Shown: positions 5,856 to 57,997 of the stretch, piece by piece
How the letters are laid out: every line of letters starts with the position of its first letter
Numbering within the stretch: position 1 is the first letter of the stretch
Notes under the pieces: model-generated
The model's database searches: none
Seen by the model: the letters and a program-made list of their open reading frames with translations, nothing else
Told to the model about the DNA's origin: nothing
Source of the DNA: an uncultured Clostridia bacterium
GTDB taxonomy: Bacteria; Bacillota; Clostridia; Oscillospirales; CAG-272
NCBI GenBank assembly: GCA_944381085.1
Contig: CALWJX010000003.1
Coordinates: forward strand, 62,001 to 126,000
Reading direction: 5' to 3'
Length of the DNA: 64,000 nucleotides
Made by a program: the position numbers and the translations under genes

Positions 5856-6470
5856 TTATAAAGCATATATATTTACACTTTCCCGTAATAGTGTGCAAAG
5901 AGCAACCGTCGCGGTCTCATATTCAAAGTCAAGAAAAAAATTGTCAGATCCGAAAAAATCACATTGCGCGAACCCCCGCGCGAGGGTTATGTCAAGCATT
6001 TTTGTATAAGCCTCTTTTGCCGTCCAGACCTTCAAAAAATTCTTGGTATTCTTTGATACAAAAGCCCTTTCACCGGAATTAAAAAACCTTGTCGATATCA
6101 ATTCGATTTTATCCTGAGTAATTTTTTTTGTTTCAATGTCTATTCCCACTTCGGTCGAAGAAATCACGCAGGCGAAACAATCTTCCGAGTGAGAAAGACT
6201 GAACCGCACCCCAGAATTTGCAAAATACGGCTTATTATTGGCTGATCTCTCCAATATAAGTCCGCTTTCGCGGACTCCGGCTTTGCGGAGCAACCATACA
6301 AGTCCGTTTAACGCGCAAAGGCTTTGCTTTATCAAGTCCGGATTTTTACGTGAAAGAATATTGTCTATATATTTATCCGTCTGTCGGTTGCAAAAAGAGT
6401 TTTTTAAGTATTCAGCCGTATCACGCGCCGAAAAAGAAGCGTCAAATCTACCGCAGCAAACAAAAGTCAT
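5856..6470 (-). CDS. 4'-phosphopantetheinyl transferase, Sfp-type
   Basis: A 204-aa enzyme predicted to transfer 4'-phosphopantetheine from CoA to a conserved serine of an acyl or peptidyl carrier protein in the cytosol. The diagnostic motifs are SLSHSED (about 91-97), VGIDIET with magnesium ligands Asp111 and Glu113, and FLKVWTAKEAYTK with Glu153. The length fits the Sfp/AcpT class rather than the shorter AcpS. Its start codon lies one base beyond the hprK stop codon, so it is co-transcribed and probably translationally coupled to hprK. No polyketide or peptide synthetase lies in the window, so it may serve the fatty-acid carrier protein or a distant locus. Confidence 0.85.
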   Translation of the reverse strand: MTFVCCGRFDASFSARDTAEYLKNSFCNRQTDKYIDNILSRKNPDLIKQSLCALNGLVWLLRKAGVRESGLILERSANNKPYFANSGVRFSLSHSEDCFACVISSTEVGIDIETKKITQDKIELISTRFFNSGERAFVSKNTKNFLKVWTAKEAYTKMLDITLARGFAQCDFFGSDNFFLDFEYETATVALCTLLRESVNIYAL

Positions 6471-6471
6471 A

Positions 6472-7401
6472 TCAGACGCCCATCTGTCCCATAAGTTTTT
6501 TACTGAATTCTTCCGCGGTATTATATCCCATTTTCTTCTGCCTGTTGTTCATCGCGGCAATCTCAAGAATAATCGCCAGATTGCGCCCCGGTTTTACCGG
6601 AATGGTAATCGCCGGAATTTTAATGCCCAGAATGTCAAAATTCTGGTCGTCGATTCCCAGTCGGTCATACATTTTTCCCTGCACCCAAGGCTCAAGATTA
6701 ATTACAAGGTCGATTTTTTCGGTCTCCTTGACCGCTCCCATTCCGAAGAGCCGGCGAACGTCAACAATGCCAATTCCCCTTAGCTCCACATAGTGCCGTA
6801 TTATCTCGGGCGCGCTTCCCACAAGCGTTTTCGCGGAAACCCGCTTTATCTCGACCGCGTCGTCCGCAATCAGCCGATGCCCTCTTTTCACAAGCTCAAT
6901 GGCGGTCTCGCTTTTTCCTACCCCACTGTCTCCAAGCAGCAAAAGTCCCTCGCCGTAAACCTCTACAAGTACTCCGTGGCGTGTAATGCGCGGCGCGAGG
7001 TAGGTATTAAGAGAACTTATGAGCGACGCCATTATAGGACTTGTCTTTTCTTTTGTCCTCAGAATCGGCACTCCGAACTTACGCGCGTTTGTCGCCATTT
7101 CCTCGAATACCGGGAGCCCAGAGGTGTAAATGACCGCGTTGGGGTGCGCGCTTATAAAGTTATATATCTTTACGCTTCGCTCCTCGTCGCTCAGCTCGGA
7201 GAGATAACGATGCTCGGCGTTTCCGATAAGATGCAGGCGTTCCGCGTCGAAAATTTCATAAAAGCCGGTAAGAGCGAGACCGGGACGCATGACCTCCGGA
7301 GTCTGAACAAGTATGCTGTCAAAATTGTCGGGGATAACCACTTTTTCAAGACCAAACTCGTCCGCCAATTTAGAGAGCGGTATGCTGTAAACCTCTTCCA
7401 T
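6472..7401 (-). CDS. hprK: HPr kinase/phosphorylase
   Basis: A bifunctional 309-aa enzyme that phosphorylates and dephosphorylates the regulatory serine of HPr, controlling carbon catabolite repression in Firmicutes. Walker A motif GDSGVGKS is at residues 157-164, followed by the HPr-kinase signature region with HRLIADD and ELRGIGIVDVRRLFG. The N-terminal domain (about 1-130) is of the usual kind and the total length is normal. The start is supported by GGAGGTATTTTTAC just upstream of ATG. It heads an operon with the phosphopantetheinyl transferase. Its presence implies CcpA-type catabolite control, relevant for the glycosidase cluster at 20-28 kb. Confidence 0.96.
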   Translation of the reverse strand: MEEVYSIPLSKLADEFGLEKVVIPDNFDSILVQTPEVMRPGLALTGFYEIFDAERLHLIGNAEHRYLSELSDEERSVKIYNFISAHPNAVIYTSGLPVFEEMATNARKFGVPILRTKEKTSPIMASLISSLNTYLAPRITRHGVLVEVYGEGLLLLGDSGVGKSETAIELVKRGHRLIADDAVEIKRVSAKTLVGSAPEIIRHYVELRGIGIVDVRRLFGMGAVKETEKIDLVINLEPWVQGKMYDRLGIDDQNFDILGIKIPAITIPVKPGRNLAIILEIAAMNNRQKKMGYNTAEEFSKKLMGQMGV

Positions 7402-7648: not shown

Positions 7649-7870
7649 TTAGTCCAAAGGAGATAATTCCATTTTCCGTATATTATCTATCTTAATTATT
7701 TCTACATTCGGACTATCTATTAGACTTATTAATATCGCTTCATCTTCATAAAAATCGTCATTGTACAGCCCTTCAAGAGCAGTTCCGTCTATGAGCGTCA
7801 CTACCACAATATGCTCATATAATTGCATATATCTATTGTGGAATTGTTCAGCTTTAAAATATTTATCCAT
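7649..7870 (-). CDS. small acidic protein of unknown function
   Basis: A 73-aa ORF starting MDKYFKAEQF. The start was chosen because GGAAAGG lies 8 bases upstream of this ATG; a GTG three codons earlier would sit inside the ribosome binding site. The protein has an N-terminal helix-like stretch, then alternating beta-like segments (HIVVVTLIDG, AILISLIDS, VEIIKIDNIRKMEL). A short helix followed by about five strands with an internal Gly is reminiscent of an Sm/LSm-like barrel, but this is a shape argument only. It is a lone gene whose upstream side faces the palindromic repeat array. I do not recognise the family. Confidence 0.6.
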   Translation of the reverse strand: MDKYFKAEQFHNRYMQLYEHIVVVTLIDGTALEGLYNDDFYEDEAILISLIDSPNVEIIKIDNIRKMELSPLD

Positions 7871-8002
7871 TACAACCACCTTTCCAAATTCAGATATACG
7901 CTTCTATAATTTTGACTCTATTATTTCCCTTTTTGTGAGGTCATCTACAAAATAGTTCCATGAGTATTCTATAAAAACAAATTAGTATTTATCTGATTCC
8001 TT

Positions 8003-8301
8003 CACGCTGTATACAAAACCCCGGACAGTTTTACATCAGTAAAACTGCCGCATACAGCAAGTTAAATATCATTTTTTGATTTCTTTACGCTGTATGCAAA
8101 GCCCCGGACAGTTTTACATCAGTAAAACTGCCGCATACAGCACGTCAAATAATATTTGTCCGATTGCTTTACGCTGTATCAATTTGCTAAGGATACAACC
8201 CGGACAGTTTTACGTCAGTAAAACTGCCGCATACAGCCAATAAAATAACATCTATCTGATTTCTTCACGCTGTATGCATATATACCATTATATCATATTT
8301 T
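8003..8301. repeat. palindromic repeat array 1 (83-bp family)
   Basis: There are three units of a nested palindrome plus a terminal half unit. Each unit has outer arms related to GCTGTATGC / GCATACAGC and an inner hairpin CAGTTTTAC-ATCA-GTAAAACTG (GTCA in the third unit). The CCCGG marker falls at 8020, 8103 and 8199: the first two units are exactly 83 bp apart and the third is shifted by 13 bp, because its left outer arm carries an extra stretch. The array ends with a lone left arm at 8268-8276 followed by an AT-rich tail (CATATATACCATTATATCAT). It lies between two divergently transcribed genes (7649-7870 minus, 8478 plus). The same family forms array 2 at 57.4 kb. Confidence 0.9.
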
Positions 8302-8477
8302 ACGGCTTTTTCAATGTAAAATGCAAAAAAAATTTATTTATCATGAAAAATGTAATTTCAATTCACATCTCCGTCATAAAAATGAGTTATAATTATTTTG
8401 AGTTTACATTTTCAACACATTCCGAAAAAACAAGTCAATAAACCCAAACATATGTTGTTCAATCGAAAGGAGATACA

Positions 8478-56723: not shown

Positions 56724-57263
56724 TCAAGCCTGCACCGATTTCTTTATCCTGTCCGCCGCGTCTTTACCCTTGAGTAGCGAGACAAGCTCAAGCCCAAACT
56801 CAAGCGCGACGCCCATTCCCTTAGCCGTGATAATACTGCCGTCGCGGACGACCTTCTCGTTTGCCTCGACTTTCGCTCCGGCAAGCTCACCCTCAAATCC
56901 GGGGAAACATACCGCGCGCTTTCCCTCAAGCAGACCTCTTTTGCCGAGTATCATCGGCGCGGCACAGATAGCGGCAATATAAGAGTTATTATTAACCGCA
57001 GCGCGTATCGCCATGTCCACCGTGTCGGAGCTGTCAAGATTGACAGTGCCGGGCATACCGCCGGGTAAAATAATCATCTCAGGTCTGTAGTCATTATACA
57101 TTGTATCGCGCATGTCAACACCGACCGAAATTTTATGAGAGCCCCGTATAATGTCGCCGCCCACTCCGACAGTGGTCACCTCAACACCGGCGCGCCGCAA
57201 AAGATCAAGCGGGCACAGCGCTTCCACTTCCTCAAAGCCTTCCGCCAAAAATAAATATACCAT
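56724..57263 (-). CDS. DJ-1/PfpI-family protein
   Basis: A 179-aa member of the DJ-1/ThiJ/PfpI superfamily. The fold starts VYLFLAEGFEEVEALCPLDLLRRAGVEV, with the conserved Glu of the catalytic site. The nucleophile elbow AAICAAPMILG carries the reactive Cys, and ILPGGMPGT follows the expected strand. Family members are deglycase/chaperone-like or amidase-like enzymes; the precise activity is not assignable. The start at 57263 is based on GGGGG eight bases upstream. The palindromic repeat array 2 lies about 160 bp upstream. Confidence 0.9.
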   Translation of the reverse strand: MVYLFLAEGFEEVEALCPLDLLRRAGVEVTTVGVGGDIIRGSHKISVGVDMRDTMYNDYRPEMIILPGGMPGTVNLDSSDTVDMAIRAAVNNNSYIAAICAAPMILGKRGLLEGKRAVCFPGFEGELAGAKVEANEKVVRDGSIITAKGMGVALEFGLELVSLLKGKDAADRIKKSVQA

Positions 57264-57424
57264 AGCCTTAACCCCCAATACCATAACAAATTATTTAATT
57301 AATATCAAAAAACAATCCCAAATACGAAATGACTGCTTTCTCCATGAATAAAATTCTCTGCCTAAGTGATATCATAAATCCAAACGGACAGTTGTTGTCA
57401 GAGAAACTTCAGCATATAACAAAC

Positions 57425-57792
57425 AAAAAGCCCGGACAGTTTTGCAACGCAAAACTGCGGCATACAGCAAATAAAATAATATTTTTTTGAGCTCTTTACG
57501 CTGTATGCAAAAACCCGGACAGTTTTGCAACGCAAAACTGCGGCATACAGCAAATAAAATATTATTTTTTTGAACTCTTTACGCTGTATGCAAAAACCCG
57601 GACAGTTTTGCAACGCAAAACTGCGGCATACAGCAAATAAAATATTATTTTTTTGAACTCTTTACGCTGTATGCAAAAACCCGGACAGTTTTGCAACGCA
57701 AAACTGCGGCATACAGCAAATAAAATAATATTTTTTTGAGCTCTTTACGCTGTATGCAATTTACGCTGTATGCATATATACAATTATATCAT
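57425..57792. repeat. palindromic repeat array 2 (83-bp family)
   Basis: Four units in exact 83-bp register (CCCGG at 57431, 57514, 57597, 57680). Each 53-bp core has outer arms GCTGTATGC/GCATACAGC and an inner hairpin CAGTTTTGC-AAC-GCAAAACTG; cores are joined by about 30-bp A/T-rich spacers. Unit 1 lacks its left outer arm. The spacers come in two forms ordered a-b-b-a (TTTTGAGCTC versus TTTTGAACTC). At the right end the left outer arm is repeated (57748-57756 and 57764-57772), followed by CATATATACAATTATATCAT. The array lies between divergent genes, like array 1. No ORF here is likely to be real. Confidence 0.93.
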
Positions 57793-57997
57793 AAAAACAT
57801 ATCCTTGTCAATTAAATTTGACATTTTTAATATAACGCATCGCTTGGCAATGTCAAAACCGAGCGGCAAGCATAAAATATTTACCGTATCCCTTATTGGC
57901 TGAGTTTCAACAATGGTAAGGCAATTCACTTTTATACTTATTGCTAAAATGGCGTTAAATTTATGTAAAATTTCCTTATAATTATTAAACATTGCTC

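Follow-up and report, generated by a model that had tools for sequence, protein, structure and literature searches.

Arrays of modular folding repeats directly behind sigma-A promoters in an uncultured Clostridia bacterium

Two tandem arrays in a 64-kb stretch of DNA from an uncultured Clostridia bacterium (hereafter the window, meaning the whole stretch that was analysed) are copies of one large genome-wide family of modular folding repeats. The arrays of this family sit directly behind sigma-A promoters, mostly ahead of unrelated housekeeping genes and in sense, and the two hairpins of the repeat unit are both kept by selection for pairing. These comparisons are best explained by a new family of insertion elements, modular and structured, that form 5' leaders: we think it fairly probable that the repeats went in at the transcription starts of sigma-A promoters that were already in place, and that they now form the transcribed 5' leader of the gene behind them. 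That the arrays are transcribed, that RNA rather than single-stranded DNA is the form under selection, and that expression is affected at all are components of this reading that we infer. Under the terms searched, no report of such an element was found in the open-access papers covered.

Read on the minus strand of the window, i.e., in the direction of the gene, each unit consists of a first hairpin (P1), a second hairpin (P2) and a UCCGGG(U) tail. P1 has 9 bp and is formed by a 5' arm GYRTACARC and a 3' arm GYTGTAYRC, which enclose a 30-nt AT-rich loop that often begins with GTAAAGAAATC. A two-base step leads to P2, likewise a 9-bp hairpin, which reads CAGTTTTGC-n-GCAAAACTG and is followed by TCCGGGTT and a short linker. 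The P2 loop varies in both length and sequence, the distance of roughly 30 nt between the P1 arms is variable as well, and some modules comprise P1 only. This anatomy derives from 54 units with recognisable arms, of which 49 are distinct and 42 were aligned. The longer linkers between units (e.g., window positions 8181-8194) often read TTGTATC and can pair with the next 5' arm, the two forming a third hairpin in the computed fold of array 1.

Table 1. Features of the two arrays and their surroundings (positions are those of the window)
Feature	Position	Strand	Description	Score or source
Array 1	7987..8278	-	3.3 units, 83-bp period, leader of minus-strand operon	Tandem Repeats Finder
Array 1 unit 1	8195..8277	-	P1 + P2 + UCCGGG; A-U at covarying P2 pair	97.5 bits
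Array 1 unit 2	8099..8180	-		78.2 bits
Array 1 unit 3	8016..8097	-		96.4 bits
Array 1 promoter	8287..8314	-	TTGAAA - 16 nt - TATAAT, TG before -10	11/12 positions plus TG
Small ORF, 76 aa, no Pfam family	7652..7879	-	First ORF after array 1	
HPr kinase gene	6472..7401	-	Downstream of array 1	
4'-phosphopantetheinyl transferase superfamily gene	5856-6470		Follows HPr kinase gene	
Array 2	57424..57759	-	4.0 units, 83-bp period	Tandem Repeats Finder
Array 2 unit 1	57676..57757	-	P2 with G-C at covarying pair	102 bits
Array 2 unit 2	57593..57674	-		102.6 bits
Array 2 unit 3	57510..57591	-		102.6 bits
Array 2 unit 4	57427..57508	-		99.7 bits
Array 2 promoter	57783..57811	-	TTGACA - 17 nt - TATAAT, TG before -10	12/12 positions plus TG
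DJ-1/PfpI family gene	56724..57284	-	Directly downstream of array 2	

As read from the sequence, array 1 carries CCCGG at 8020, 8103 and 8199 and the stem-loop CAGTTTTAC-ATCA/GTCA-GTAAAACTG, and the four units of array 2 read CAGTTTTGC-AAC-GCAAAACTG. The paired change from which the original prediction started, TTTTGC/GCAAAA in array 2 versus TTTTAC/GTAAAA in array 1, is present as described and on both sides of the stem. However, the bases that flank the P2 stem change along with it (minus strand, CCGCAG versus GGCAG), and the difference between the arrays is therefore one of a module and not of one compensated base pair. Since modules are exchanged whole between arrays, arrays 1 and 2 alone could not prove covariation.

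The wider family supplies this evidence. Among 42 units of the source genome, the covarying P2 pair is GC in 32, AU in 7 and UA in 3. In a model-fitted alignment of 142 distinct units the same pair is GC in 99, AU in 17, UA in 8, GU in 2 and another combination in 5 (11 are gapped); 17 of the 18 pairs show changes on both sides, at least one on each, and the covariation score of 0.181, compared with 0.095 in shuffles, was reached in none of 500. Because paralogous units are related, a phylogeny-aware null was used in an R-scape-like test: an unfitted MAFFT alignment of 117 distinct full-length units and a FastTree tree were scored by a G-test with product correction against 1,000 null alignments, in which the number of substitutions was kept for each column and their places on the tree were drawn at random. 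The top-scoring of all column pairs is the P2 pair taken from the comparison of arrays 1 and 2 (columns 58-64, E 0.004 per alignment), with eight co-substituted branches (four GC to AT, three AT to GC and one GC to TA). The second and third ranks fall to P1 pairs (8-41, E 0.010; 2-47, E 0.081), whereas the fourth-ranked column pair has an E of about 11 (30 nulls). The test assumes a tree, which does not hold where arrays have exchanged modules, and these E values are therefore a guide. Paired changes keep the pairing above the phylogenetic background, the pair named in the prediction included, which is the opposite of the outcome that would have counted against the prediction.

Other parts of the prediction fared less well. 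The supposed conservation of the outer arms is right only in part, as the P1 arms covary in their turn (C-G/U-A, G-C/A-U, A-U/G-C). An outer stem had also been implied, in which the arms would enclose the CCCGG hairpin. Of 27 cases in which neighbouring units have unlike arms, the 3' arm pairs better with the 5' arm of its own unit, on the far side of the AT-rich spacer, in 11 and with that of the next unit in 2 (14 ties, G-U tolerated), so that the outer stem, though able to form, is the less supported register.

The exact core CCCGGACAGTTTT is found in 60 copies in the source genome and its reversed-pattern control in none. A covariance model built on 42 source-genome units gives 135 matches at E <= 0.01 among 150 candidates scored, a figure that includes reverse-strand echoes of the palindromic units, so that with only 150 candidates scored the true number of units is inexact. 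The matches occupy 58 places in 56 sequence pieces, and the number of arrays must be somewhat below 58, since several are split in two by contig ends. A chance origin of the family, of its placement and of the covariation was considered and ruled out by the reversed-pattern, random-position and null-alignment controls. On 21 contigs (C3, C6, C15, C19-C21, C29-C31, C34, C41, C42, C50, C51, C53, C54, C59, C60, C66, C72 and C74) an array is found no more than about 250 nt from the contig end; arrays seem to break the assembly, and longer arrays may thus be under-represented. Contig C15 also carries an array of longer period (L111:3836-4258), with 114 nt between unit starts and the next ORF antisense.

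For the placement of the arrays, the promoter and orientation counts cover the loci with sufficient sequence on the side in question. A TATAAT box lies at most 40 nt upstream at 38 of 49 source-genome loci, compared with 3.3 % of random positions (167/5,084), and at 34 of 46 loci of a sister genome, CASEEB01. Promoter scores of at least 10.5 directly upstream were obtained for 32 of the 49 loci, as opposed to 1.0 % of 3,004 random positions and 0.5 % of shuffled upstream sequence, and the spacer is 17 in 28 of these 32. The base G of the extended -10 element is present in 26 of 27 array promoters versus 23 of 50 other TTGACA/TATAAT sites, the classes being assigned by regular expression with a few rows mislabelled. 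The sequences between the promoter boxes are unlike among loci, so the array did not bring a duplicate of the promoter with it. The offset between array and -10 box varies, mostly from 0 to 20 nt, and in many cases the first P1 arm directly adjoins the promoter or overlaps with it (TATAATGTATACAGC). In another genus, both divergent loci with upstream sequence begin right behind a -10-like box. At 11 of the 49 source-genome loci there is no TATAAT within 40 nt, and some arrays are located inside operons (L116, L121). Array-less promoters reading TATAATGTATAC occur at L099:1652 and on the minus strands of L108 and L132 and may be remnants or target sites.

The nearest downstream ORF is in sense at 35 of the 42 assessable loci and antisense at 7 (16 were not assessable). 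Thirty of the 35 listed downstream ORFs were scanned for protein families, and among these 30 no functional theme emerged, the proteins belonging to housekeeping families or giving no match. The genes behind arrays encode, among others, galactokinase, an M29 peptidase, a poly(A)-polymerase/tRNA nucleotidyltransferase-type enzyme, DAHP synthase, a pyruvate formate lyase-like protein, RimM, prephenate dehydrogenase, aspartate aminotransferase, a mechanosensitive channel, DNA polymerase I, arginyl-tRNA synthetase, YmdB and undecaprenyl diphosphate synthase.

Model R1 has matches at E <= 0.001 in 6 of 142 genomes of the bacterial family, the source genome included, and in two of the six (G051, L070; G087, L071) the matches look like chance on reading. 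A second model, R2, matches 3 of 394 genomes of the order, with few candidates scored per genome. The exact core 13-mer is present in 11 of 146 genomes, again with the source genome, and the unit is absent from the 17 stretches read around it in other genomes, several of those from G041 being part of a different repeat; viral contigs yielded no family match. An exact-pattern scan of named genomes revealed one other array-rich genome, the sister genome CASEEB01 (G146, uncultured Eubacteriales). CALXXF01 has a few copies and JAFXJX01 a single one, and one match in JAUNDE01 looks like chance. Three genomes together have 114 listed model matches, and CASEEB01 accounts for about 100 of these (107 in a second tally).

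Long alignments with CASEEB01 were obtained for 42 of the 56 source pieces, mostly at about 85-95 % identity. In the 14 pairs of orthologous arrays shown, the promoter and often the first P1 are kept while unit number and P2 type differ, although unit number is equal in one pair (L131/L180). The orthologue of array 1 has an identical promoter and the same first stem but another P2, so that part of the difference between arrays 1 and 2 is module exchange. Polymorphic empty sites were looked for at the neighbourhood of array 2 and at five gene starts, which are essentially absent from the incomplete sister bin. The orthologues show turnover, in which units are added, lost and exchanged as modules.

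Congeners point to a probable mode of acquisition. The array-poor congener G048 (about 70 % protein identity) holds, in about 0.75 million bases, homologues of 10 of the 35 downstream genes, and none of these 10 loci has an array. For five of them (M29 peptidase, aspartate aminotransferase, phosphoglucose isomerase, an ABC protein and rimM) a similar promoter can be recognised by eye, with a short leader behind it; for example, G048 has ..TTTTTATGGTATAAT followed by a short leader where the source genome has ..TTTTTATGATATAAT followed by the array. The polA gene has a promoter without an array both in G048 and in G104. Among the remaining G048 homologues, one (46 % identity) is not alignable and three are without visible promoter. 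Since congeners keep the promoter of some of these genes without the array, the arrays were probably gained at transcription starts, which is the simplest reading of a small sample of six loci and two congeners.

Under the preferred reading, repeat units would have entered pre-existing sigma-A promoters at the point where transcription starts, and the array would then head the transcript of the downstream gene as its 5' leader. The folded leader would most likely act on its own mRNA, i.e., on decay, pausing or translation, and the number of units could provide a dial for its effect. A more ambitious version, which we regard as rather unlikely, proposes a mobile leader element that is aimed at the transcription bubble and whose folded units insert in sense just behind the -10 box of active sigma-A promoters; tens of housekeeping mRNAs of one lineage would thereby come to carry a tandem structured RNA and be modulated by it as a group, e.g., through a polymerase that is modified as it leaves the promoter.

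Whether the selected fold is one of RNA is a matter of argument. Array position and orientation favour RNA, but two observations speak against a clean RNA reading. In 13 arrays P1 follows TATAAT at 0 nt, which would leave half of the first 5' arm untranscribed, and in those that were read this arm still matches its partner. Furthermore, the two strands of array 2 fold alike (z -7.2 and -7.3). The original prediction that the folded form matters is upheld as far as the pairing is kept, and the form in question may be RNA or extruded DNA. G.U pairs exceed A.C by 16 to 9 in the unfitted alignment (p 0.23) and by 58 to 32 in the model-fitted one, which is biased by the fit.

The pairing kept by first arms upstream of the expected start and the like folding of both strands would suit a selfish, non-autonomous mobile repeat without regulatory role, whose hairpins serve as recombinase substrates in folded single-stranded DNA and for which promoters are simply places with melted DNA. 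Such a repeat, which we consider possible though doubtful, would also account for copies at unrelated genes and their absence from congeners. However, the strong bias for the sense orientation and the variable offsets behind the -10 box, unlike a fixed target site, do not fit it well, and the Y1 transposase (Y1_Tnp, PF01797), the one family tested, has no match in the source genome (98.3 % complete), whereas it was found in 5 of 14 control genomes. The repeats are small, non-coding, strongly structured and dispersed in many copies, as is expected of bacterial MITEs. At the array ends that were inspected for terminal inverted repeats and target-site duplications, the arm on one side tends to recur on the other in direct orientation; the leaders do not align, so that the boundary towards the gene could not be placed.

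The first arm abutting or overlapping the promoter, the perfect dyads and the variable array size could also be understood if the arms and P2 palindromes were DNA operators, that is, tandem sites of a dimeric protein that covers the start site. We judge this improbable: the variable P2 loop and P1 arms some 30 nt apart with variable spacing would be unusual for one dimer, and a pair that alternates between GC, AU and UA would not be easily accepted by a protein that reads sequence. Control of a regulon by a cis-acting RNA that is tandem and of known type (riboswitch, attenuator or RNA antitoxin repeat) is very improbable in spite of the 5' leader location, the two conserved hairpins and the conserved unpaired tail, since the 64-kb window has no Rfam match at gathering scores (array 2 gives sub-threshold matches only), no theme unites the genes behind the arrays, and a type III toxin, whose gene would be expected directly behind RNA antitoxin repeats, is not recognisable among the 30 scanned proteins.

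The closest in kind are the BOX and Correia elements, and we file the family under neither. BOX of Streptococcus pneumoniae (boxA-boxB(n)-boxC) belongs, with RUP and SPRITE, to the short interspersed repeats; it is modular with a variable number of tandem inner modules, hairpins are predicted when it is transcribed, and the pneumococcal repeats, described as enriched downstream of CDSs, have a proposed effect on co-transcribed genes (PMC3049150). The present family is like BOX in being short, interspersed and modular, with variable numbers of tandem inner modules and predicted hairpins. It differs in its position at the -10 box (38/49) and at gene heads in sense (35/42) rather than behind CDSs, and fixed end modules of the boxA/boxC kind were not recognised in its arrays. 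The Correia elements (CREE/NEMIS) of Neisseria are described as small structured repeats mostly upstream of genes, with transcripts that can be RNase III targets and one element immediately downstream of the mtrCDE promoter (PMC10969869, PMC2229807, PMC2649163); they are reported to carry promoters of their own. Tandem arrays do not figure in the available parts of their descriptions (PMC10969869, PMC2229807), whereas the present family is tandem. Both are small, structured and upstream of genes by these accounts; unlike that of Correia elements, the promoter here is recognisable in congeners without an array and is thus not supplied by the element.

REP/BIME and other IS200/IS605-type repeats are dispersed palindromic units, sometimes in small arrays. 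In contrast to these, the present family occupies start sites rather than positions between or behind genes, and no Y1 (RAYT) transposase was detected in the source genome. The put RNA of HK022 has a two-hairpin layout. It is described as a cis-acting leader RNA that changes polymerase behaviour (PMC9378689). The put RNA resembles the proposed leaders in this respect but is a phage element and not a dispersed array.

Small dispersed repeats of bacteria are usually found between or behind genes, where they are least harmful. The present family has spread to the spot at which some tens of ordinary genes are most sensitive; most copies share one orientation, and the folds are kept while modules are swapped. 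Two questions become testable in this way. One is whether mobile elements are able to target the sites at which transcription starts, the other whether shared control through mRNA leaders can be gained by a lineage in one burst, and for both the filled sites of the source genome and the empty sites of congeners are at hand.

Two observations from other genomes may be added. G041 (L050, L051, L053, L055) contains a different dispersed repeat, which shares AAAACTGTCCGGGC and carries TTTCACGTGAAAC. In G048 and G121, single P1-P2 copies (L069 and L067) are followed by a hairpin resembling an intrinsic terminator and adjoin an apparently duplicated 3' end of rpsI (a gene named by eye) together with ATATCGTG repeats common to two genera, a context that possibly represents an integrated element.
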